The notes under the pieces were generated by a model. The model ran no database searches. It was not told the DNA's origin and saw nothing but the letters and a program-made list of their open reading frames with translations. Positions 24,733 through 37,126 of a DNA stretch of 64,000 nt are shown in pieces. This DNA is from Pedosphaera parvula Ellin514 (GTDB lineage Bacteria; Verrucomicrobiota; Verrucomicrobiia; Limisphaerales; Pedosphaeraceae). Position 1 is the first letter of the stretch. Every line of letters begins with the position of its first letter. The translations under genes and the position numbers were made by a program. Where the stretch lies: contig NZ_ABOX02000022.1 in NCBI RefSeq assembly GCF_000172555.1, forward strand, positions 1 through 64,000. Reading direction: 5' to 3'.

Positions 24733-27700
24733 ATGGCGTTTTTACGAACACTAAAACAGGGCTTCAACAGCTCCCTCGCCTTGGCATCACTGCTCACGGC
24801 ATTCATTTCGAACAATTCCCCCGCGCAAAATTGCATGCCACCACCCAGTGGTCTGGTTGCCTGGTGGCCTGGTGAAGGCAACGCCGTCGACAACGTTGCC
24901 GGGCACAACGGCTCAGTCTCAAATGGCGTGACCTTCGTCCCAGGCATGGTTGGCCAGGCATTTAGTTTTGACGGGGTTCATGCCATTCAAGTGCCGAATG
25001 ATCCTGCTTTCAATTTTGGTCCCACTTCCCCCATGGCGGTTGAACTCTGGGCTTATCTCACTGGCAGCCAGCCAACCGCGCACTTCATCGGCAAACGTGT
25101 AGGTTGCGACGGGGACAATTTTAACTATCAAATGGCTTATGATGCCGAAAATGGTTTGCAGTTCAGCTGCAGTAGTCTAAACGGCGTTTACACTGGCATC
25201 CCAATGCCCACAAATGTCTGGACGCACCTGGCAGGCACCTTCGACGGAACCACCTTTCGATTTTATATTAACGGGTCTCTGGTCGCTTCAAATAACGGAG
25301 TATTGGGGCCGGTCAACTCAGAACCACTCATTATTGGTGGTTCGGGCACATGTGGAATTTTTGAAGGACTCATCGACGAACCTTCGATTTACAACCGCGC
25401 GCTCTCAGACGCGGAAATCAAATCCATTTATGATTCCGGCTCTGCGGGGAAGTGCCCCGTCGTATTTAGCAATCAGCCTCCTGGGATTGTGGCTCAACCC
25501 GCCAGTCAAACCATCGGCGTAGGAAGTAACGTCACCTTTTTTCGTCACAGCGATCGGCGCTGCACCGCTTCAATACCAATGGCTTTTCAACAGTACCAAT
25601 ATCCCAGGTGCGCTTGGCAGCAGTTACACGCTCTCCAACGTTCAACTCTCCGATGCTGGAAATTACTCGGTGGTCATCACCAACATCGCGGGCAGCACCA
25701 TCAGTTCGAATGCTCTTTTGACGGTCATTGGGAATACGAATGTCGCTCCCACCATCATCTCGCAACCAACCAACCAGATTGTTGTTAATGTCGGCTCGAA
25801 CGCCATATTCCGCGTCACCGCGACAGGAACTGCACCACTCCGCTATCAATGGCGCTTCAACAACACGAACATCGCAGGAGCCACCTCCAGCATTTACACT
25901 CGTGTGAATGCGCAACTGACCAATGCTGGTAATTACTCAGTTGTAATAACCAACCTGGCCGGCAGTGTCATCAGTTCGAATGCCCTTTTAACGGTCATCG
26001 GGTTCGCTCCGACCATCACCTCGCAACCAGCCAGCCAGACCGTCAATGCCGGAACAAACGTCACCTTCTCCGTCGTTGCCACCGGAACCGCCCCGTTGCG
26101 CTACCAATGGCGGTTCAACAATACAAACATTGCGGGAGCCACCGCCAGCATTCTGACTCGCTTGAATGTGCAAACTGCCAATTCAGGCAATTACTCCGTG
26201 GTCATCACCAACGTCGTCGGCACTGTCCTCAGTTCGGATGCGCTTTTGACGGTCATCTCCAATACAAACATCGCTCCAACCGTTGTGTTCTTTTCCCCCA
26301 CGAACAACATGGATTTTGGCAGCACCAGCGATATCGGCGTCTATGCCCAGGTATCAGATGTAGATGGCATTGTAACCAACCTCGACTTCTTCTCCGGAAC
26401 CAATCTCTTGCAGACCATTTCTGGCAATTTGACCAATAATGGCGGCCTCTACGGTTTTACTTGGACAAATGTGCCCCCGGGTGTTTATTCCATCACGGCC
26501 GCTGCAACCGACGACTCCGGTGCAGTTTCAACCACCGCTCCTCTCACATTCACGGTCGGCGGTACTCTCCCGACCATCACCTCGCAACCAGCCAGCCAGA
26601 CCGTCAATGCCGGAACAAACGTCACCTTCTCCGTCGTTGCCACCGGAACCGCCCCGCTGAGCTACCAATGGCGCTTCAACAACACGAACATCGCAGGAGC
26701 CACCTCCAGCATTTTCAGCCTCTCGAATGTCCAAACTGCCAATGCAGGCAATTACTCCGTGGTCATCACCAACATCGCGGGCATCACCACCAGTTCGAGT
26801 GCGCTCTTGACGGTCATTGGGAATCCAAACTTCCCTCCAACAGTTGTGTTCTTTTCTCCTACGAACAACATGAATTTTGGCAGCACTAGCGACATCGGCG
26901 TCTATGCCCAGATGTCAGACGTTGATGGCATTGTAACCAACCTCGATTTCTTCTCTGGAACCAATCTCTTGCAGAGCTTTTCTGGCAGTTTGACCAACAA
27001 TGGCGGCCTCTACGGTTTTACTTGGACAAATGTGCCCCCGGGTGTTTATTCCATCACGGCCGCTGCAACCGACGACTCCGGCGCAGTTTCAACCACCGCC
27101 CCCCTCACATTCACGGTCGGTAGTACTCCCCCAACCATCACCTCGCAACCAGTCAGCCAGGTCGTCAATGCCGGAACAAACGTCACATTTTCTGTCGTCG
27201 CCACCGGAACTGACCCGATGAGCTACCAATGGCTCTTCAACAACACGAACATCGCAGGAGCCACTTCCAGCATTTTCAGTCTCTCGAATGTCCAGACTAC
27301 CGATTCAGGCAATTACTCGGTGGTCATCACCAACATCGCGGGCAGCACCACCAGTTCGAATGCCCTTTTGACGATCATTGAGAATACGAATGTCGCTCCG
27401 ACCATCACCTCGCAACCAGCCAGCCAGACTGTCAATGCCGGAACAAACGTCGCATTCTCTGTCGTCGCCACCGGCACCGCTCCGCTGCACTACCAATGGC
27501 GCTTCAACAACACGAACATCGCAGGAGCCACCTCCAATATTTTAACCCGCTTGAATGTACAACCTACCAATTCAGGCAATTACTCGGTGGTCATCACCAA
27601 CGTCGCGGGCGGCATCATCAGTTCGAATGCCCTTTTGACGGTCAATGCGATCGCTCCGACCATCACCTCGCAACCAGCCAGCCAGACCGTCAATGCCGGA

Positions 27701-30487
27701 ACAAGCGTCACCTTCTCTGTCAGCGCCACCGGCACCGCCCCGCTGCGCTACCAATGGCGCTTCAACAACACAAACATCGCAGGAGCCATCTCCAGTGTTT
27801 TTACGCGCTTGAATGTCCAAACTACCAATGCAGGCAATTACTCCGTGGTCATCACCAACCTGGCTGGCACGGTGACCAGTTCCAATGCCCTCTTGACCGT
27901 CATTGCTAATACGAATGTCGCTCCGGCCATCACCACCCAGCCGCAAAATCAGACCGTTGCAGTCGGACAGAGCGCCACTTTCAGTGTTGTTGCTACTGGC
28001 ACTGCTCCCCTCCTGTATCAATGGCGATTCAATACTACAAATATTCCTGGCGCCCAGGGAAGCAGCCTTACCCTCAGCAATGTCCAGCCTTCCAATGCGG
28101 GCAACTACTCTGTCGTCATCACGAACATCGCCGGAAAGGTGACCAGTTCCAACGCGCTTTTGACTGTCATCGCTCCTGTTCTCATCACGGCACAGCCGCA
28201 AAGCCAGGCTGTCACGGAGGGCAATGCCGCCGCCTTTACGGTGAGTGCAACCGCCTCCACACCCTTGCAATATCAATGGCTTTTCAATGGTTCGCCCATC
28301 GCCGGCCAAACCAACTCCTCCCTTGCGCTGCCCGGCGTGGCTGCCGCCGATGCAGGCCTTTATTCTGTATCGATCAGCAGCCTCCTGAGTTCCGTCACAA
28401 GTTCCAATGCGACTTTGACCGTCACTCCAGCTGTCTGTGTTCCCGCCCCCGCTGGCTTGGTCAGTTGGTGGCCGGGTGAAGCCAATGCGCGAGATCTTAC
28501 GGATACCAACAATGGGACCCTCGATGGCTCACTGGACTTCGCTCCCGGCAAGGTCGGACAAGCCTTTGTTTTCAATGGCACGGATGCGGATGTCAAAATC
28601 CCCGCTTCCGCCGATCTCAACGTCGGTGCCGGAGATGGCTTCTCGATTGATGCCTGGATCAATCCTTCAGATGTCACAACTCAACGTCCGTTGGTCGAAT
28701 GGAATTCAGGTTCATATGGTGCTCACTTCTGGATTTCCGTACCGGTTTCCAGCACCGGTGCCGGCCCAGGTTGCCTCTATGCCAACCTGTCGGACACCGA
28801 CGGCTTGGATCATACCATTACCTCACCTGCCGGAACCATCCTGCCCTCCACGTTTCAACATGTAGCTCTTACCTACGATAAAACCAGCGGCATGGCGGTG
28901 TTGTATGTAAACGGCAATATTGTTGCCCAACAAAATCTCGGCACCTTCACTCCGTCCACCACAGGCGATCTTTGGCTCGGCCTGCGTCCCGCTGGCGACG
29001 CAGCTGGAACCCGCTTCCTTGGCAGAATGGATGAAGTCGATCTCTTCAATCGCGCGCTCTCCGCGACCGAGATTCAATCCATGTATAACGCCAGCTTTGC
29101 CGGCAAGTGCCGCACTTCACCGTTGGTCGTTACCCAGCCAGCCAGCCAGACTGTCACTGCGGGTGACAACGCGACCTTCACAGTGGAAGCTGCTGGCACT
29201 GGAAGCCTTCACTATCAATGGCAATTCGCAGGCGCCGACCTCTCTGGTGCCACAACCACGTCGCTCGTCATTTCCAACGCACAGCCCGCCAACGCTGGAG
29301 ACTATTCCGTCCTCATCTCGAGCGCCATCGGCTCCGTCACCAGCTCCAATGCAACTTTGATAGTGAACCACGCCCCGGTCGCCAATCCGCAGTCCCTTGC
29401 AGTGAACGAGGATTCTTCGCTATTCATCACTCTCTCCGCAACGGATGAAGATGCCGACCCACTCACTTACACAGTTTCGACTCCTGCTCATGGCACACTG
29501 ACCGGCACCGCCCCAAATCTGGTGTATCAACCGGCCGCGGGCTATTACGGACCTGATGCATTCACCTTCCACGTGAACGATGGCCTCCTCGATTCGGAAG
29601 ATGCCACAATCACCATTGATGTAAGGTTCGTAAATCACGCTCCTCTAGCCGAATCACAATCTGTCACCGTCAACGAGGATTCGAGCGTCGCCATCACCCT
29701 CACGGCCAGCGATGTGGAAAACGATCCGCTGACTTACTTTGTCCTCACCGCCCCGGCCCACGGAACGCTGACCGGAAACGGCGCCAATCTGGTGTATCAT
29801 CCGAACGCCAACTATTTCGGCCCTGACACCTTCACCTTCAAGGCAAACGATGGTCAGGTCGACTCTGGTGTAGCCACGGTTACCATCACCGTCAATCCAG
29901 TCAATGACGCCCCGGTGGCCGTTGCCCGGATTTACCCCTTGTTTGTTCTCTCAACCAATGACACCGACCTGATTGTCATCGCCCCAGACGGCATACAAGC
30001 CACGGTGATCTTTGACGGTTCACTTTCCACCGATATCGAAAATGACCCGCTTCAGTTCACCTGGCTCGATGAAGGGAAAACCAATATTCTCGGCCAAACA
30101 ATGGTGGCCACGAATACGCTGAGCGTGGGCACGAATATCGTGTCCCTCATCGTGAGTGACGGAACGGACATGAGCACCAACACCATCCAGGTGCAAGTGA
30201 TCACTCCCGCCGAAGCGGTGTCAAAGCTTTCTGCGGTTCTACAGGAAGTGGACCTCGGCGGAACCAGCAAAGATCCTTTCTTGGATGCTCTAAACGATGC
30301 GCAAGACGCACTCGGAATGGGGCAGTTGGACAAAGGAGTTTCCTTCCTGGAGAAGTTTGAATACAAAGTGTCCAAACAAACGTCACCGGTATATACCGAA
30401 TCCGTTGCGCGGCTGATCTATATCGCCAACGAAATCATCCAAGCCGTCACTCCGCCATCTGGCAACCCACAAGCAATAAAACATTAA
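24733..30487 (+). CDS. Giant secreted LamG/Ig-repeat adhesin-like protein (interrupted by one frameshift)
   Basis: One gene in two frames: 24733-about 25542, then frame 2 to 30487; repaired it would encode about 1,917 residues. After a signal peptide there is a LamG/concanavalin-like domain ('SGLVAWWPGEGN' ... 'LIDEPSIYNRALSDAEIKSI'), nine Ig-like repeats of about 85 residues ('YQWRFNNTNIAGAT...AGNYSVVITN...SSNALLTV'), two copies of a 'VVFFSPTNNM.FGSTSDIGV' domain among them, a second LamG, a tenth Ig repeat, two cadherin/Big_17-type repeats ('NHAP.A..QS..VNEDSS') and a PKD-like end. No membrane anchor or PEP-CTERM signal is visible. It is probably a surface or matrix protein; the ligand is unknown. 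The shift is an extra T in a six-T run. Confidence 0.88.
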
Positions 30488-30501
30488 CGAACCATTCAAT
30501 C

Positions 30502-30542
30502 GTAAATGCCAGAAACCAAAAGTTTCTGGCATTTACTTTTTT
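30502..30542 (+). terminator. Rho-independent terminator of the giant gene
   Basis: A perfect 15-bp stem (GTAAATGCCAGAAAC / GTTTCTGGCATTTAC) with a 5-nt loop is followed by six T residues, 14 bp after the stop codon. Confidence 0.95.
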
Positions 30543-30545
30543 CGG

Positions 30546-30577
30546 AAACGGTGCGCGTTCTGCGCCAACATCCCATT
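30546..30577 (-). mobile_element. Tiny remnant resembling an IS481 transposase 5' end
   Basis: On the minus strand this reads 'MLAQNAHRF', close to 'VMLAQSARF' in the longer remnant at 32454-32732. It is only about 30 bp, so it may be chance, but it sits at the border between the giant gene and the accessory region. Confidence 0.3.
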
Positions 30578-30654
30578 GGTGCCCCGCTTGAGGTACTAAT
30601 GGGCGACCACTTTTCGAAAATTAGGTGTCATTACTTTGGTTTGACGCCTTTTTA

Positions 30655-30661
30655 GTTAGCG
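30655..30661 (-). other. attC-like R'' core site after the VOC gene
   Basis: Reading on the minus strand, CGCTAAC begins 3 nt after the VOC stop codon and matches six of seven positions of the integron core RYYYAAC. The partner arm was not identified, so this is suggestive only. Confidence 0.35.
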
Positions 30662-30664
30662 ATT

Positions 30665-31027
30665 TTATTTCGGTTCCCATAGCTCAATGGGATTGCCTTC
30701 AGGATCATGCAAGCGCGCAAACCGCCCGTTTGGGTAAGCCTCTGGATCAGGAGATACATCAATCTTCGCGGCCCGAAGCTTTTCTACCAGACGATCAAGG
30801 TCTCGGACGCGAAGATTGAGCATCCATTGCTGCTCAGGACGACCGAAATAGTTTGTGTCGTGCGGAAACGGCGCGAAGACCGTTGGGCCTGCTTCTTGCG
30901 ACCAAGGCTTCTGGGTGTAGTCGCCAGGCACAAGCTCGATTCCAAAATGTTCCTTGTACCACTGGCCCAACACCGCCGGATTTTTGGAGCGGAAGAATAG
31001 ACCGCCAATTCCAGTGACATGTTGCAT
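30665..31027 (-). CDS. VOC (glyoxalase/bleomycin-resistance fold) protein
   Basis: A 120-residue vicinal-oxygen-chelate protein made of the usual paired beta-alpha-beta-beta-beta modules: 'VTGIGGLFFRSKNPAVLGQWYKEHFGIEL' and 'MLNLRVRDLDRLVEKLRAAKIDV ... GRFARLHDPEGNPIELWEP'. The final Glu of 'PIELW' and the His near the start are the usual metal-ligand positions. The substrate is unknown. The gene starts 11 bp after an attI-like junction, and GCTAAC lies 4 nt after its stop, so it looks like an integron gene cassette. Confidence 0.87.
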   Translation of the reverse strand: MQHVTGIGGLFFRSKNPAVLGQWYKEHFGIELVPGDYTQKPWSQEAGPTVFAPFPHDTNYFGRPEQQWMLNLRVRDLDRLVEKLRAAKIDVSPDPEAYPNGRFARLHDPEGNPIELWEPK

Positions 31028-31037
31028 AGGGCGTTTT

Positions 31038-31112
31038 TGTTAACAATCAATATGCGACGCGTGTCGCAATCATTCCAATATACGAACAATTTTTCGAGTA
31101 CTAATTTCGCCC
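31038..31112 (-). other. attI-like junction, copy A
   Basis: On the minus strand this holds the block 'ATTGTTCGTATATTGGAATG', then 'CGACACGCGTCGCATATTGAT', shared with 33316-33391 and in part 34677-34730, and ends at GTTAACA immediately before the VOC gene. Similarity to the other copies runs back to the first codons of the integrase remnant ('GACTACCGC'). Copies A and B stop matching at the G of GTTA, where integron recombination would occur. Confidence 0.6.
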
Positions 31113-31142
31113 CTCGACTACCGCTCAGGCAGACCCGTTCAT

Positions 31143-31149
31143 GTTAGCC
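31143..31149 (-). other. attC-like R'' core site after the small membrane protein gene
   Basis: GGCTAAC on the minus strand starts 1 nt after the stop codon of the membrane protein gene. It matches six of seven bases of RYYYAAC and could form the outer arm of an attC of about 110 bp ending at GTTAACA (31038). Confidence 0.35.
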
Positions 31150-31150
31150 G

Positions 31151-31585
31151 TCATGGGTTCGACTCCTTCCTTTGAAACCACTCGGCAGCGGGAGAAAAAT
31201 AGATGATGGCGAGCACCATCCCAACCAACAGAGTGGAACACTGAGAGAAAGCGCCGGCAACCGCATTCGAGAGAATTGGTCCTGGCGAAAAACACATCCA
31301 TATCAACATATAAACCCAAGCTGCCACACTGAGCCACCGAGCAGATGGCCAGAAACGGTAAAGCCCGACGAGAGCGACAAGCGCTATAATGAGACCGGGT
31401 ATGCCCAGAAAGCTGATAACCAGCTCGCCAGCTTTCGGATGGACACCGTGCTGGGCCTGCTGGTAATCGAGAAGTGACGGAGGCAACAACCATGAATCAA
31501 AAACTCCGGCGACTGTGCTCGTGACCAAGGCAGCAATAGAAAGCGTCAAGAGAACTCGAAACTGTTTTTTGGTCATCGGTTTCAT
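31151..31585 (-). CDS. Small four-helix membrane protein
   Basis: A 144-residue protein with four predicted transmembrane helices (VLLTLSIAALVTSTVAGVF, ELVISFLGIPGLIIALVALVG, WLSVAAWVYMLIWMCF, TLLVGMVLAIIYF) and a basic N-terminus. No family was recognised. The ATG at 31585 is preferred to the TTG at 31597. It begins 8 bp after the PhyH stop and is followed at once by an attC-like core site, like many small membrane proteins found in integron cassettes. Confidence 0.75.
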   Translation of the reverse strand: MKPMTKKQFRVLLTLSIAALVTSTVAGVFDSWLLPPSLLDYQQAQHGVHPKAGELVISFLGIPGLIIALVALVGLYRFWPSARWLSVAAWVYMLIWMCFSPGPILSNAVAGAFSQCSTLLVGMVLAIIYFSPAAEWFQRKESNP

Positions 31586-31593
31586 GGTGAGGT

Positions 31594-32295
31594 TCAAATG
31601 ACGGGCACAACTGCTCTCTGGGATACTTGGACAGGTCTGGTCGGATCGAACCGGTCCGCCGTATCCATCCGGATGCCGCGCAGTTTTGCCGATTGGAGAT
31701 GCGTGGCGTAGAGCGGCTCGGCGAAATAACAGATCAGGATGGAGCGACGGCGTGCGCCGGTCGGGTTCAGGCTGCCCGCATGCACCAGATCCGCATCGAA
31801 AATCAGAATGTCGCCGGCGGAGCCTGAGAGTTGCACCGACCTGGATTCATCGGCGAAGTCGAACGGCAGCTCACCCTGCGCCGGGCGGTGGCTGCCGGGG
31901 ACGATCCGAGTCGCGCCGTTACAGGGGCCATAGTCGTCGAAATAGGCGAGGGCGATCACCGTATCGCCTGGCCGCTGGGCGAAAAGGTCGCGGTGCAGCG
32001 TCTGCTGGCCGCCGCCCGCCAGCGGCTCGCGGCCCTCCACCTGCGAGAGGAAGAACCGTTCGCCGATCAGTTCGCCAACCACGGCCAACACCTCGGGCAG
32101 GCGGCACACCGCCTGCACGCGGGGATCGAGGTCCAGCAACGAATGGCGCCAGCCAGCCCCGCGCGGCACGGGCCATTGATCCGACGGCTTGACGTCCGCA
32201 TCAAACGCGGCGCGCAGATCATCCAGCCTTTCGGCCGGGATCGCTCCGCGGAGCAGGGCATAGCCGTCCCGGTGGAGTTGCTCGTGGTCAATCAT
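31594..32295 (-). CDS. Phytanoyl-CoA dioxygenase (PhyH) family protein
   Basis: A 233-residue Fe(II)/2-oxoglutarate oxygenase-type protein. The N-terminus 'HRDGYALLRGAIPAERLDDL' is typical, and the iron triad is visible as the HxD of 'TLHRDLF' plus the His of 'DADLVHAGS', with a downstream Arg for 2-oxoglutarate. The substrate is unknown. The coding sequence is visibly more G+C rich than its neighbours, suggesting recent transfer. ATG 32304 is an alternative start three codons upstream. Confidence 0.88.
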   Translation of the reverse strand: MIDHEQLHRDGYALLRGAIPAERLDDLRAAFDADVKPSDQWPVPRGAGWRHSLLDLDPRVQAVCRLPEVLAVVGELIGERFFLSQVEGREPLAGGGQQTLHRDLFAQRPGDTVIALAYFDDYGPCNGATRIVPGSHRPAQGELPFDFADESRSVQLSGSAGDILIFDADLVHAGSLNPTGARRRSILICYFAEPLYATHLQSAKLRGIRMDTADRFDPTRPVQVSQRAVVPVI

Positions 32296-32453
32296 GGCTC
32301 CCATCGTTTTCGGAATCTCTTATCAAAAAATCTGTCGAACGTAAAGGGGGGCGATCCTAATTATTGACACGTTTTTCACTTTTGTTTGGGGCAACCGGGT
32401 CCGGTAAGGACAGTTCCTGTGGCAGTCCCATGTTGCGCGCAACACAGGAGAGG

Positions 32454-32732
32454 CTAGGAGAGACGGCGATTGAGGTCAATCCTGAGGACCCTTTTTGGCA
32501 TCCTGGCCGGGATTGGACTCCGCGCGCACCTTGACAGGAAACCGGAGCGGACGGTGGCTGCGGCGGCCAGGCCCTGCAAGCCGTCTGCCGCATAGCGAAC
32601 CAAATGTTTGTAGCCAGTTTTGCGACTGATGCCAAACTGCTCGCACAGTTCAGTCACCGTAAAGCGCGCGCTCTGCGCCAACATTACAAATCTAATAATC
32701 TCGTCCATAGGGGTTACAGATTTCCAAGCCAT
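32454..32732 (-). pseudogene. Truncated IS481-family transposase
   Basis: The first about 55 residues are a clean match to the HTH start of IS481-type transposases ('SVTPMDEIIRFVMLAQSARF', then 'LCEQFGISRKTGYKHLVRYA'). After 'DGLQGL' the translation no longer resembles the family, and the DDE catalytic domain is missing. Another minus-strand frame continuing to 32357 may carry the decayed end of the element. Confidence 0.8.
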
Positions 32733-32905
32733 GGTGCTCGAAAGTTTAACCCATCACTCCGGACAGACTGTTACCTATCACTCCGGTTCATACCGTCTTT
32801 GTTTAAACCCGGACCCCGGGAAAGCGGGTTGAGAGTTGAGCAGGGGCAGATGCTCGCTTGGGCTCGCGCCTTCGGCAAAATGTGGGGTGTTTTAGGGGAT
32901 ATTAC

Positions 32906-32965
32906 CCCGGGGCAAACGTGCTTTGCACGTTTGCCCCGGGCTATTATCTGTCGTGCCTACGGCAC
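32906..32965. repeat. REP-like palindromic element
   Basis: A perfect 16-bp inverted repeat (CCCGGGGCAAACGTGC / GCACGTTTGCCCCGGG, loop TTT) at 32906-32940 is followed 12 bp later by a small hairpin GTGCC-TAC-GGCAC. This double-hairpin layout resembles repetitive extragenic palindromes mobilised by RAYT transposases. No RAYT gene is in the window, and no second copy was seen here. Confidence 0.6.
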
Positions 32966-33105
32966 TTTCCATAGCGCTTCTTCGAGGCGGAGGTGTTTTA
33001 AAATTGAGCTGAGGTATCGTTGCAGCCTGAGGGCGGAATGTTTGGTGTCAATGGAAACTGGCAGGGGTGTAATTACTTTGATTTCGACCTTTTTTTTGAC
33101 CACTT

Positions 33106-33371
33106 TTACGCTTGAGGTTGAGTGCTGGCGGCGATAGCGTTTTTCGCGAGCGGAGTGAGAAACTTTTCCAGTTTAAGTTCGCTGGGCAAGTGAGGCGGCA
33201 GTGTTTGAAGAAGATTGCAGTATCGCTTGGGCCAGCCGCAGTAAATCTATTCGGTGTTCAATGCAAGATGCTTTCGCCGAATGACAGCTGACAATGTTTT
33301 CAGCGCGGTAGTCATGGGGCGATACGAGCACTCGAAATATTGTTCGTATATTGCAATGATTACGACACGCG
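33106..33371. repeat. About 265-bp direct repeat, copy B (integrase start plus attI-like segment)
   Basis: It aligns with 34466-34726 along its length, including 'TTCCAGTTTAAGTTCGCTGG' and 'CTCGAAATATTGTTCGTATA'. Each copy holds an inverted integrase gene start followed by the shared attI-like DNA. Confidence 0.9.
33109..33315 (-). pseudogene. Integron-integrase N-terminal fragment, copy B
   Basis: Reading from an ATG at 33315, the minus strand gives 'MTTALKTLSAVIRRKHLALN', then 'TE', an in-frame TAG, 'IYCGWPKRYCNLLQTLPPHL' and 'LEKFLTPLAKNAIAASTQPQ'. This follows the N-terminal SAM-like domain of IntI integrases up to the ASTQNQA block and then stops matching. There is no catalytic domain. 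The stop codon and truncation make it non-functional. Confidence 0.75.
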
Positions 33372-33391
33372 TCGCATATTGATGGTTAGGC
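33316..33391 (+). other. attI-like site, copy B, with canonical GTTAGGC core
   Basis: The 76 bp between the integrase-fragment start and the gene at 33404 carry the conserved block 'CTCGAAATATTGTTCGTATA' and 'CGACACGCGTCGCATATTGATG', ending at 33385-33391 with GTTAGGC, a perfect match to the integron core GTTRRRY. The downstream gene starts 12 bp later, as expected for the first cassette of an integron. Confidence 0.6.
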
Positions 33392-33403
33392 GCATCTCGC
33401 ACC

Positions 33404-33796
33404 ATGAAGACATTCGTCCGCAACCATAAGAACCTCGCCGCAGTCGTCGGTGTTGTGGCGTTCATGGTGGCATGGTGGCTTTCGGCGTCTGCTCGCGGTT
33501 ATCTCGTCGCCCGTTTCGATGTCGCTCGCGGACATTATGAGGTGCAAGGTTTTGGCCTGCCCGCCAAGTGGAGACCAGATTACGCCCGCTTGTTGCGAGA
33601 GCGCTACGGCATCGAGCATCACACAGTTGCAGGCTGCGTTGTTAGCGATTCGCTTGTTTCTTACGTCGGCGCCTACAATTCGGTCACGAAAACAGCAGCA
33701 CAGCGCAAGTTCGGCCGTGATGTGTTCGCAGAGTGTGCGGTTGATGCTCGCAAGGCTTGGGAGGAGCGGAAAGTGGCAGGCACAAAGGCAGAGTGA
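33404..33796 (+). CDS. Hypothetical membrane-anchored protein in cassette position
   Basis: A 130-residue protein with one N-terminal membrane helix (LAAVVGVVAFMVAWWLSASA) and a soluble remainder containing 'YEVQGFGLPAKWRPDYARLL' and 'YNSVTKTAAQRKFGRDVF'. I do not recognise a family. It begins right after the GTTAGGC core, which suggests it was captured as a gene cassette. Confidence 0.7.
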   Translation: MKTFVRNHKNLAAVVGVVAFMVAWWLSASARGYLVARFDVARGHYEVQGFGLPAKWRPDYARLLRERYGIEHHTVAGCVVSDSLVSYVGAYNSVTKTAAQRKFGRDVFAECAVDARKAWEERKVAGTKAE

Positions 33797-33922
33797 GTGA
33801 TTCTGACAGATACTCCTGCATAATGTTTGCACCTGCAGCATGGGCATTTGGACTCTAAGGAAACATGGAAGATTACAAATACTTTGGTCTTCATCGACAC
33901 TGAGTCGGGTTGATTCCTACCA

Positions 33923-33955
33923 AAGACCAGTTCCGGAAATGGGCTGGTCTTTTTT
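33923..33955 (+). terminator. Rho-independent terminator-like hairpin
   Basis: An 8-bp stem (AAGACCAG / CTGGTCTT) with a 13-nt loop is followed by a T run. It lies in the 182-bp gap between the cassette-like gene ending at 33796 and the next gene at 33979. Confidence 0.7.
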
Positions 33956-33978
33956 CATCGGCTCAGTAGCTTAACCGC

Positions 33979-34455
33979 ATGACCGCTAAGGAAGAGAACT
34001 ATATCCACTACACAGAATGCTGTCTAGGTCTCAATAGTGCTTGGAGAATTTTGAAGGAGTTGCAAGGGATTGAGAAGAGAACCGGCATTCACTATGCCGC
34101 ATATTGCTTTGCTTTAATTGAATACGCACAGCCATATACCCGGTCGGATGGCACGCATAAGAAATACTCAATCCCAAGTCCTCCCCCGCAACTAAGTCCA
34201 GAAGAACTAAAATTGCATGAGCAGATTATTCGGCTTCGCCATAAAGTTTTGGCGCACTCCGATTTGACGCTGAAGGACGCCAAAATGTCTATATTCTCCT
34301 ATGGTGGCAGCCCTCATGCCATGATTGCTCAGAACCACCTTCCGCAATTCCCCGAAATCAATGCGGTTGTGTCGCTGATTGAGCACACACTGGATGCTAT
34401 GTATGTGACACAATCGCGTATGCTCGATGATTTGGTTGCCAATGTAGCGAATTGA
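33979..34455 (+). CDS. Hypothetical protein with HEPN-like motif
   Basis: A 158-residue, largely helical protein of unrecognised family. The segment 'IIRLRHKVLAHSDLTL' contains an R-x5-H pattern in a context like HEPN-fold proteins of the AbiU2 type, some of which are toxin or abortive-infection RNases. The resemblance is a motif-level impression only. No antitoxin gene is evident beside it. Its stop codon lies about 6 bp from the truncated end of the integrase fragment on the other strand. Confidence 0.65.
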   Translation: MTAKEENYIHYTECCLGLNSAWRILKELQGIEKRTGIHYAAYCFALIEYAQPYTRSDGTHKKYSIPSPPPQLSPEELKLHEQIIRLRHKVLAHSDLTLKDAKMSIFSYGGSPHAMIAQNHLPQFPEINAVVSLIEHTLDAMYVTQSRMLDDLVANVAN

Positions 34456-34461
34456 AATCAG

Positions 34462-34676
34462 GATGGCATTAAACGCTTGATTCTGGGTGCTGGCGGCGAC
34501 ATGGTTTTGAGCAAGCGCCGTGAGGAATCTTTCCAGTTTAAGTTCGCTGGGCAAGTGAGGCGGCAGTGTTTGAAGATAATTGCAGTATCGCTTGAGCCGC
34601 AGTAAATCTGTTCGGTGTTCAATGCAAGATGCTTTCGCCGAATGACCGCTGACAATGTTTTCAGCGCGGTAGTCAT
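34462..34676 (-). pseudogene. Integron-integrase N-terminal fragment, copy C
   Basis: From the ATG at 34676 the minus strand encodes 'MTTALKTLSAVIRRKHLALN', 'TEQIYCG', then after a 4-nt deletion relative to copy B continues in another frame: 'KRYCNYLQTLPPHLPSELKL', 'ERFLTALAQNHVAASTQNQA', 'FNAIL'. The last block is highly characteristic of integron integrases (TIGR02249 family). Matching ends about 6 bp from the end of the convergent HEPN-like gene. The catalytic R-H-R-Y part is absent. Confidence 0.8.
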
Positions 34677-34726
34677 AGGGCGATATTTGCACTCGAAATA
34701 TTGTTCGTATATTGGAATGATTGCGA
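34466..34726. repeat. About 260-bp direct repeat, copy C
   Basis: Partner of 33106-33371; see that entry. Copy C keeps the CAG codon that is TAG in copy B but has lost 4 nt inside the integrase frame. Confidence 0.9.
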
Positions 34727-34730
34727 ACAC
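34677..34730 (+). other. attI-like segment, copy C (truncated)
   Basis: It shares 'CTCGAAATATTGTTCGTATA' and 'TTGGAATGATTGCGA' with copies A and B, then diverges before the GTTA core. The lipoprotein gene follows within 16 bp. The core may have been lost by deletion. Confidence 0.55.
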
Positions 34731-34745
34731 ATGTCACACAGAGCC

Positions 34746-35213
34746 ATGAAGTTCACTCGGTTCATCCTCTACAGTTTGTTGATGACTCTTGTCTTTGTGG
34801 TTGGATGCGAGACGCCGCCGCCCGCTCAGACGCCACCGCCCGCTCAAGACCCGCTGGCAGGTTGGAAATGGGTCGGCACTTTCGACCCACTCATGGCTGA
34901 TTCCATCAAACGAATGACAGGGACGAAAGATGCTCTAGGCAAGATTATCACGACGACTCCAGCCGAATATGAGAGGTATGCGAAGGAGTGCCCGTTCGGT
35001 TCGAAGGTCGTGGATGATTACCAAAATTTCATAAAGAAGAAAAAATTGGGTTGGATAGAAAGTTATGAGTTTTTTGAAGATGGGACAGGCCAGCATGCGG
35101 TCAGGATTGCCGCTGGCACAGACGGAACTTACAGCACACATATTTTGATATACGACAGCTCCAACCAGAGAGTGAGAGTCATCAGTTATGTCACGGGACA
35201 CTATCGTTGTTGA
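34746..35213 (+). CDS. Putative lipoprotein of unknown function
   Basis: A 155-residue protein with a lipoprotein signal peptide (MKFTRFILYSLLMTLVFVVGC, Cys as +1) and a Pro-rich stretch with a repeated 'PPPAQTPPPAQ', then a soluble domain ending 'VRVISYVTGHYRC'. No family was recognised. ATG 34731 is an alternative start. It follows attI-like copy C and is followed 3 nt after its stop by GCCTAAC, so it fits a captured cassette. Confidence 0.75.
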   Translation: MKFTRFILYSLLMTLVFVVGCETPPPAQTPPPAQDPLAGWKWVGTFDPLMADSIKRMTGTKDALGKIITTTPAEYERYAKECPFGSKVVDDYQNFIKKKKLGWIESYEFFEDGTGQHAVRIAAGTDGTYSTHILIYDSSNQRVRVISYVTGHYRC

Positions 35214-35216
35214 GTG

Positions 35217-35223
35217 GCCTAAC
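35217..35223 (+). other. attC-like R'' core site after the lipoprotein gene
   Basis: GCCTAAC, a perfect match to the integron core RYYYAAC, starts 3 nt after the stop codon. A matching GTTRRRY arm was not found in the next about 140 bp, so the site may be broken. Confidence 0.45.
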
Positions 35224-35395
35224 ACATCACGAGCCTGTGTGAAAAGTATTTTACTTTTTGTAAATGGCGTGGGGTTGGCGAGGTGTTGACCGGATTTTGA
35301 GGTTTTCCAGGATGCCAAATTATTGATCTGGGAATGGGAGCGTTCCAGGTGGTTATTGGCGTCGCCGGTGGCAAAAAGGGGCTTTCGCCCTCTTT

Positions 35396-35881
35396 TTATC
35401 CCTTCACTGCCACGGCCTTGATCAAATCCTCGAAGCTGACGATGTTCAAAACGCGTTTCAGGTTGTAGGCCAGCACGGTTAAACTCATTTCCGCCCTCAC
35501 TCCGGCCAGTCTTTTGCATAAAAAATATCCGGCATTCATCGCTCGCTTGATCGTCCCGAAAGGATGTTCGGCGATGGCCTTTCTTGATTTCATAATTTGC
35601 CGGTTGTTCTTCACCCGTTGCGCCATGGCTTCCATCAACGCTTCGTTTTCTTCGCGCGTAATCGTGCGATTAGCCTTGTTCCGGGTGCATTGCTTTTTGA
35701 GCGCACAGGTTTTACAGCCCGTGGCCCGGTAGTATCGCAATGCGCGTTTTTTCTCGAAGGGGAGCGGTAGGTCAGTTCTTTTTTTCCCGGACAAAGGTAA
35801 AAGAAGATTGTGAGAATATTTTTTGCGTGTTGCGTGAGGGATGAATGGGACGGAGTATGAATTAATATATTTAAAAGTCAC
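35396..35881 (-). pseudogene. 3' part of an IS1182-family transposase
   Basis: The minus strand encodes the C-terminal region of an IS1182-type transposase: 'ATGCKTCALKKQCTRNKANR', 'RKAIAEHPFGTIKRAMNAGY', then 'RAEMSLTVLAYNLKRVLNIV'. The N-terminal two thirds, with the first catalytic Asp residues, are absent, and the first about 20 residues of the frame are unrelated. The element is therefore dead. It separates the integron-like region from the rpmH cluster. Confidence 0.82.
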
Positions 35882-36500
35882 TATTTGTTTAAAAACGTAT
35901 TGACATTGTTTTGTTAATGTTATAAATAAATTACATTGCTGCTGAATAAATGGGTTTTATGCTGAAATTTATAAGGAGATTATCGGGGCGCGATTGGGTG
36001 GGCCTTGGCGGGGTTGAGCCGGTGGTTTTCTCTATGCGATGGGAAGCTGTTGAAACAGCTCCAGGTTTTGCATCGCTGTGGAATACAGGGCTGGAAGCCG
36101 TGGTGTTAATGAAAAGGAGAAGGGCGTTATTGGTGCGCCGGGGGCAGGGTGCCGGACCGTGAGTTAACGGCAGTTATCGGGACATCTTTTATTCTATTTG
36201 AATTTTGAATGAACTCTGAAGTTATAGATTGGCAGGATGGGGCTGGGGTGCGACCAAGGAAATGTCGAATGGCAAATTTCGAGCGACGAATTGGAAGCGG
36301 GGTGCGTGGGGGGCGGAAGGTATCGGAAGGTATCGGAAGGTATCGGAAGGTTGAAAAATATTGGACAGGAGGCATGGTTGGGAAATCGAGGCCAAAGTGG
36401 TAAAGTCTGAGGGCAGAAGCTGGTCTATGAAATCACTATTTAAGAGAGCGGGAGGGAAGTTGGGGTGGAAACCGAATTGTGGTCCCGGTGATTCGCTCGC
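35882..36500. other. Intergenic region with AT-rich start and 10-bp tandem repeats
   Basis: About 620 bp without a convincing gene. Positions 35882-35945 are strongly A+T rich and include TTGACA (35900) with TATAAA 15 bp later, a possible promoter. A 70-codon frame at 35950 has no recognisable features. The 10-bp repeat at 36314-36350 is listed separately. No cluster of DnaA boxes was noticed. Confidence 0.4.
36314..36350. repeat. Short tandem repeat (CGGAAGGTAT) about 3.7 copies
   Basis: The 10-mer CGGAAGGTAT occurs three times in succession and a fourth time as CGGAAGG. The copies are perfect, so the number is likely to vary between strains. Confidence 0.95.
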
Positions 36501-36528
36501 TTGACACTCAGATTTTCACTGTTATCCT
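36501..36528 (+). promoter_or_regulatory. Sigma-70-type promoter of the rpmH cluster
   Basis: TTGACA at 36501-36506 and TATCCT at 36523-36528 are separated by 16 bp and lie about 75 bp upstream of rpmH. The position suits transcription of the rpmH-rnpA-yidD-yidC-jag cluster. Confidence 0.7.
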
Positions 36529-36600
36529 CTCGCGTTCCGTGAAAAGCGGGTGGCTGTGTGCTGAAACTGTGAAGTGGCCGGGCCATAAGATTTAAGAATT

Positions 36601-36738
36601 ATGAAACGTCAATATCAACCGTCGAAGATGCGCCGTAAACGGCAACATGGCTTTTTGAATCGCAATTCCAGCAAGAGTGGAAAGGCCACCTTGGCCAATC
36701 GCCGTCGCGTTGGGCGCAAACGTCTGACCCCGGTATAA
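36601..36738 (+). CDS. rpmH: Ribosomal protein L34
   Basis: A 45-residue, highly basic protein of the large ribosomal subunit. '[20 protein letters not shown]' and '[13 protein letters not shown]' match L34 closely, and the length is normal. It is first in the conserved rpmH-rnpA-yidD-yidC-jag cluster, preceded by a good promoter. Confidence 0.97.
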
Positions 36739-36751
36739 GAGGGAATGGGCC

Positions 36752-37126
36752 ATGGCGGCTGAACCGCAGCAACGCCGCCTGCTGGGGCGCAATATGCGCT
36801 TAAAGCAGTCGCGGGATTTTTCGCGGGTGCGGCAGCAGGGGCGGCGGATGCCGTATGGTTGTTTGATTGCCAATTGGATGGTTTTACCTCCCGGATCGCC
36901 CATGCGACTGGGAGTGATCACTGCGAAGAAGCTTGGTAATGCGGTGGTTCGGGCTCGTGCCCGGCGCTTACTGAGGGAGGCATTTCGGTTGCATCAGCAC
37001 GATTTGTCACAGCCGGTCGATCTTGTTTTGGTGGCACAAAGAACTATTGTTGGGAAGGGCTTTGCAGCAGTCGAAGCTGATTTTCTGGCTATGTTAAGGA
37101 AAGCCAGGCTGGTGAAGACGTCGTGA
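36752..37126 (+). CDS. rnpA: Ribonuclease P protein component
   Basis: A 124-residue protein cofactor that helps the RNase P RNA process tRNA 5' ends. The family signature is present: '[16 protein letters not shown]', '[20 protein letters not shown]' and 'RLLREAFR'. The ATG at 36752, preceded by GAGGGA, is taken as the start; ATG 36794 (MRLKQSRDF) is possible. It begins 13 bp after rpmH, and its TGA overlaps the GTG start of yidD. Confidence 0.96.

Follow-up and report, generated by a model that had tools for sequence, protein, structure and literature searches.

An integron typically has one attI, and the standard finder, IntegronFinder, ignores attI outside class 1 (PMC9024848). The exceptions that come closest to the DNA discussed here are the 'unusual' or DeltaattI-type gene cassettes known from mobile integrons of classes 1 and 2, which IntI1 excises and inserts and one of which, of 244 nt, comes from attI2 (PMC12901181); as cited in that paper, they are traced to Partridge 2000 and 2009. 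In these cassettes an attI piece replaces attC behind the gene, giving the order gene-attI|next cassette, crossover falls at G|TTRRRY, and the piece may reach toward intI (DeltaattI2-238), as the copies we describe do. Ours differ in lying on a Verrucomicrobiota chromosome, several to the genome, in including intI coding pieces up to about codon 90, and in having companion attI copies at the heads of arrays. The between-cassette form is thus one already known as DeltaattI-type cassettes, here multiplied in a chromosome.

Three other systems invite comparison. Sedentary chromosomal integrons with an intI pseudogene (PMC2426708; Xanthomonas, PMC12444791) offer the same decayed ensemble of truncated intI, attI and an array with uniform attC sites, but as a rule they have one platform per genome, whereas here one attI lineage is repeated about 14 times and a second lineage is present besides. 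CALIN, the clusters of attC lacking integrase (PMC9024848), resemble the arrays on contig C15, which contain two or more attC sites and no intact intI and so qualify as CALIN. They differ in that attI sites, of the kind the finder passes over, are present here, and the stretch in our window, with no whole attC, does not qualify. Insertion of cassettes at attG, in what PMC12901181 cites of it, likewise places cassettes at several chromosomal positions without intI, but where those sites are divergent and non-classical, ours are attI copies that are nearly identical to one another.

The window, by which we mean the whole stretch of 64,000 nucleotides analyzed, is part of contig C22 of the soil bacterium Pedosphaera parvula Ellin514, a draft assembly of 7.41 Mb in 102 contigs. 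The original prediction spoke of a decayed chromosomal integron with multiplied intI-attI segments, each feeding a different gene. Some 14 copies, breaks in identity at G|TT and a cassette exchange between two relatives bear this out, and we consider it probable that this is a decayed sedentary chromosomal integron whose platform end exists in many copies and whose attI sites were used by IntI. The repeat would be that platform end, the first part of intI plus attI. At several places in the chromosome, copies would stand at the front of small cassette arrays; others would stand between cassettes instead of attC, as DeltaattI-type gene cassettes, and might be able to move as such. An integron integrase, probably working in trans and now lost from the assembly, would have used each attI to admit a separate cassette, with the crossover falling between G and TTRRRY, and every dispersed attI would have been an entry port in its own right. 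The amplification step itself we infer: the copies would stem from duplication or rearrangement of the platform.

Copies A and B (Table 1) are direct repeats, 88.8% identical over 258 bp (33108-33391 against 34460-34738; blastn, E 6e-94), and on the minus strand each specifies an integron integrase from its start to residue 70-78, interrupted in both by frameshifts and stops. Fragment B matches TIGR02249 (8.7e-5) and PF13495 in profile searches. The intact IntI of genome G131 is 61% identical to A and 70% to B, and a query assembled from the intI fragments is 72% identical to this protein and 69% to the IntI of G072. These two intact proteins score 277 and 274 on TIGR02249, above the curated cut-off of 265 bits; A and B had no match among the tyrosine recombinases taken from their own genome. 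Since the fragments match IntI and none of these recombinases, and since the G131 and G072 proteins pass the IntI cut-off, the fragments are intI, not Xer, and the two truncated integrase starts first proposed from the letters alone are real. So is the idea that a different gene stands behind each attI-like copy: a VOC gene, a 130-aa gene with a membrane segment and a putative lipoprotein gene. Searches of Pfam and NCBIfam with the 130-aa protein gave no match; the 158-aa ORF has a weak AbiU2/HEPN match in Pfam (E 0.043). What did not hold was the claim that A and B diverge exactly at the core G. Copy B has no core, terminates in ...GCGAACACATGTCACACAGAGCC-ATG, has no R'' box and splits from A about 10 bp ahead of that point, whereas the other copies do diverge precisely at the core. 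The core in the window is intact in A, degenerate in C and lost in B.

Table 1. Features of the window and places of the repeat (window coordinates unless a contig is named)
Feature	Position	Strand	Basis or remark
R''-like CGCTAAC 3' of VOC gene	30655..30661	-	6/7 to RYYYAAC; sequence
VOC/glyoxalase-like gene behind attI C	30665..31027	-	PF18029, 1e-7
Copy C, attI without intI	31038..31124	-	Degenerate core GTTAACA 31038-31044, ahead of VOC gene
R''-like GGCTAAC	31143..31149	-	Between 148-aa gene stop and copy C; sequence
148-aa membrane-protein gene upstream of copy C	31151..31597	-	ORF
Copy A intI'	33109..33315	-	About codons 1-71; tblastn extent; PF13495 and TIGR02249 matches
Copy A attI	33316..33391	+	Core G|TTAGGC 33385-33391; alignment of 15 attI copies
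130-aa gene, first behind attI A	33404..33796	+	ORF; N-terminal membrane segment
158-aa ORF	33979..34455	+	ORF list; stop codon 4 bp from copy B intI'
Copy B intI'	34460..34676	-	About codons 1-78; profile, blastn and tblastn matches
Copy B attI remnant	34677..34738	+	Core-bearing right end gone
Putative lipoprotein gene behind copy B	34746..35213	+	Lipobox VVGC; ORF and sequence
R'' GCCTAAC and attC 5' half	35217..35245 (R'' 35217-35223)	+	86% to 5' half of another attC
Repeat copies A, B, C	C22		
Other single-letter copies, C15	D 69.0, E 69.9, F 76.3, G 78.0, H 78.9, I 80.8 kb		
Repeat on further contigs	C10; C36; C66; C55		C55: two copies, one without attI

Copy C, predicted as a third, inverted attI, proved to be the last part of the A/B repeat on the opposite strand (88% over 84 bp; blastn). 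The 148-aa gene upstream of it, for which Pfam and NCBIfam searches gave no match, is followed after its stop codon by an R''-like box, so that C would occupy the place expected of an attC, in the DeltaattI manner. A real attC in relative G005 is headed by R'' GGCTAAC, identical to this box. A 1605-aa ORF with many immunoglobulin-like repeats (window 25500-30487) adjoins the whole ensemble on the left.

Genome-wide counting, which the original prediction had hoped would also turn up an intact intI, gave about 14 copies of the repeat on six contigs (12 places in one search, more in others), but an intact intI was not found across the draft assembly and may sit in one of its gaps. The longest intI piece, copy F, runs to about codon 139 (C15:75.96-76.3 kb). 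The genome has attI with GTTRRRY beside intI pieces, all of them 5' fragments, and has attC cassettes, without the intact intI that would complete an integron. Several attI copies lie inside one array, where an integron would have one. A second attI lineage, 72-76% similar, is present at C15:114.3-115.9 kb. The right end of the copies is fixed at the core and their left ends vary, so that no single mobile unit is defined. We could assign a setting to D, F, O and the C10 and C36 copies, which head arrays, and to C, E, G and I, which stand between cassettes; the left neighbours of A, B and H are ambiguous. Among the array heads, D (after a gene and its terminator), F, C10 and O adjoin chromosomal genes. 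The between-cassette copies of the first lineage follow an R'' after a gene's stop codon, as do two sites of the second lineage at C15:114-116 kb, and all of these show the DeltaattI arrangement of an attI piece replacing attC, although G has since lost its attI. G and I have in common a stretch of 326 bp from R'' to intI', 96% identical, behind two different genes. Several copies, then, stand in place of attC. Amplification of the platform and capture of attI as a mobile repeat, posed at the outset as alternatives, may both have acted, because there are copies that head arrays (D, F, C10, C36) and copies between cassettes (C, E, G, I). Two further observations belong here. H and both C55 copies extend further on the left, into a common flank that contains REP-like GGGGTCAGG...AAAGTATTGACA (L029 5690-5790; L089 4915-5000, 5780-5870), and one gene cassette, 95% identical, occurs in two C15 arrays (L028 17684-18133 and L029 8785-9234).

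To examine the right-hand junction, we aligned 15 attI copies from this genome and its relatives G001, G005 and G007. Over the 30 bases to the left of the core, mean pairwise identity is 88.5%; over the 30 bases that come after TTRRRY on the right it is 28.3%. In 13 of the 15 an ATG follows 4-55 bp past the core, so the repeat lies at gene starts genome-wide, as had been supposed, rather than mostly away from them. A break at G|TTRRRY is the pattern expected of IntI exchange and argues that each attI took in a cassette of its own. The relatives supply two instructive cases. One G001 attI, about 79 bp long and lacking intI, is followed by a cassette (GTTCGGCACGGG...) whose G007 counterpart stands behind a proper attC; over 364 bp the cassettes share 90% identity, the match starting at the core G. 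The C36 copy and a G007 copy have a common left flank, diverge exactly at the core and have different genes behind it; their orthology rests on the common flank DNA, a tRNA-Met being called in G007 only. Judged from such junctions, the attI copies were used as IntI sites, an intI-less attI (the G001/G007 exchange) among them. That exchange also speaks, indirectly, for excision and insertion of DeltaattI-type cassettes by an integron integrase.

The reading that survives best beside ours is that small integrons were simply duplicated whole, as segments, and then decayed: the platform would have been copied several times together with its flank, intI would have decayed, the attI copies would be passive relics, and the between-cassette positions would come from later deletions that fused arrays. 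We would put this a little short of an even chance. It has G012 on its side, a genome of another family with three units of about 1 kb, 92-95% identical, each consisting of intI'(1-76)-attI with a minisatellite on the left and a different cassette on the right; the two units readable to the end diverge right at the core and lead into different genes. Chromosomal genes directly left of D, F, C10 and O fit it too, and intI pseudogenes are common (PMC2426708). It sits less easily with the R'' boxes just upstream of C, E, G and I, which point to reuse in the place of attC, with the G/I unit found behind two different genes, and with the G001/G007 exchange, in which an intI-less attI was used.

We think it improbable that the segment was a promoter module, selected for the cassette promoter Pc and not for recombination. 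The shortest copies do retain the attI part, and attI B has a weak promoter-like match, TTTGCA-16-TATATT, toward the lipoprotein gene, but such matches number 4 against 3.2 in shuffles, no excess, and exchange at G|TT is recombination. Less probable still is that the repeat spread as an element of transposon type (MITE, REP-associated or IS-borne) in which intI'-attI was included by chance. H and the C55 copies do have that common REP-like flank, and one G131 copy lies directly against a REP-type transposase ORF. But the IntI core is always at the right end, the left ends differ where a MITE or insertion sequence would have two fixed ends, the alignment of copies showed no terminal inverted repeats, most copies have neither target-site duplications nor a shared left end, and different genes start exactly at G|TT.

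To return to a multiplied platform end whose attI sites were used by IntI, its distribution is both narrow and wide. The attI DNA of the window is confined to 4 of 320 genomes; among species genomes the pattern occurred only in Pedosphaera MAGs (named Pedosphaera sp.), and a search of viral contigs did not find it. A query with the IntI N-terminus, on the other hand, returned the same anatomy from further families of this order, where an intI cut off near codons 66-93 adjoins attI, the core and a different gene, as seen in G131, G009, G072/G043 and G002. G131 has three truncated intI'-attI copies together with an intact intI, although an assembly gap (NN) occupies the expected attI place of the intact platform. 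In a tree of intI, the intact G131 gene and its truncated counterparts from G131 fall together, as do F and the other copies of our genome, which indicates that truncation happened repeatedly. The left ends cluster near codons 66-93 in our genome, G131, G009 and G072/G043, and a (G/A)TTRRR core-like motif lies within intI at that place. A site-specific left end was nevertheless rejected: other lineages end at codons 110-180, the junctions scatter over about 20 bp, and the protein alignments end in a variable linker. In G012 (L117, L118, L119), a minisatellite array of about 41 bp lies left of each intI'-attI copy and was copied along with it.

Across the order, one integrase may serve many dispersed attI sites, intI-less or intI-truncated, in trans, with cassettes entering at many chromosomal ports and attI traveling behind cassettes in place of attC. 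We offer this tentatively and on balance doubt it more than we believe it. Should attI copies prove common and be used in trans, genuine attI sites may have been the loading points of many arrays that are now classed as clusters without integrase. Cassettes that end in attI and not attC would form a natural series on how genes gain a recombination site, the question of cassette genesis, and G131, in which an intact intI accompanies several truncated intI'-attI copies, could serve as a test case. A search of the literature on Pedosphaera and Verrucomicrobiota found no report of multiplied intI'/attI copies.

The attC sites complete the picture. A covariance search, suggested with the original prediction, found them behind cassettes on C15, C36 and C66 and in relatives, in canonical form: R''/R' and L''/L' pairing, unpaired bases and ten pairs with compensatory changes. 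In window 29000-37000, by contrast with those contigs, the covariance model with filters off gave no credible complete attC. Because the window copies have neither an intact intI nor a whole attC next to them, they are unlikely to be active at present. The lipoprotein cassette ends in an attC 5' half that runs into a remnant of the IS1182 family, and the end of the C10 array has the same ending (91% over 333 bp to window 35213-35530). The remnant follows an attC 5' half in two arrays (window 35213-35881; L032 3193-3525). Two long attC sites (L028 16843-17048, L083 5755-6010) contain a short insert with similar ends (GAGCCTGTGTGAAAA...TTTTCACACAGGCTC), and it looks as if an IS1182 element and a short derivative insert into attC. 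A hybrid site at L030 7100-7240 joins an attC 5' half to the 3' end of the second attI lineage.
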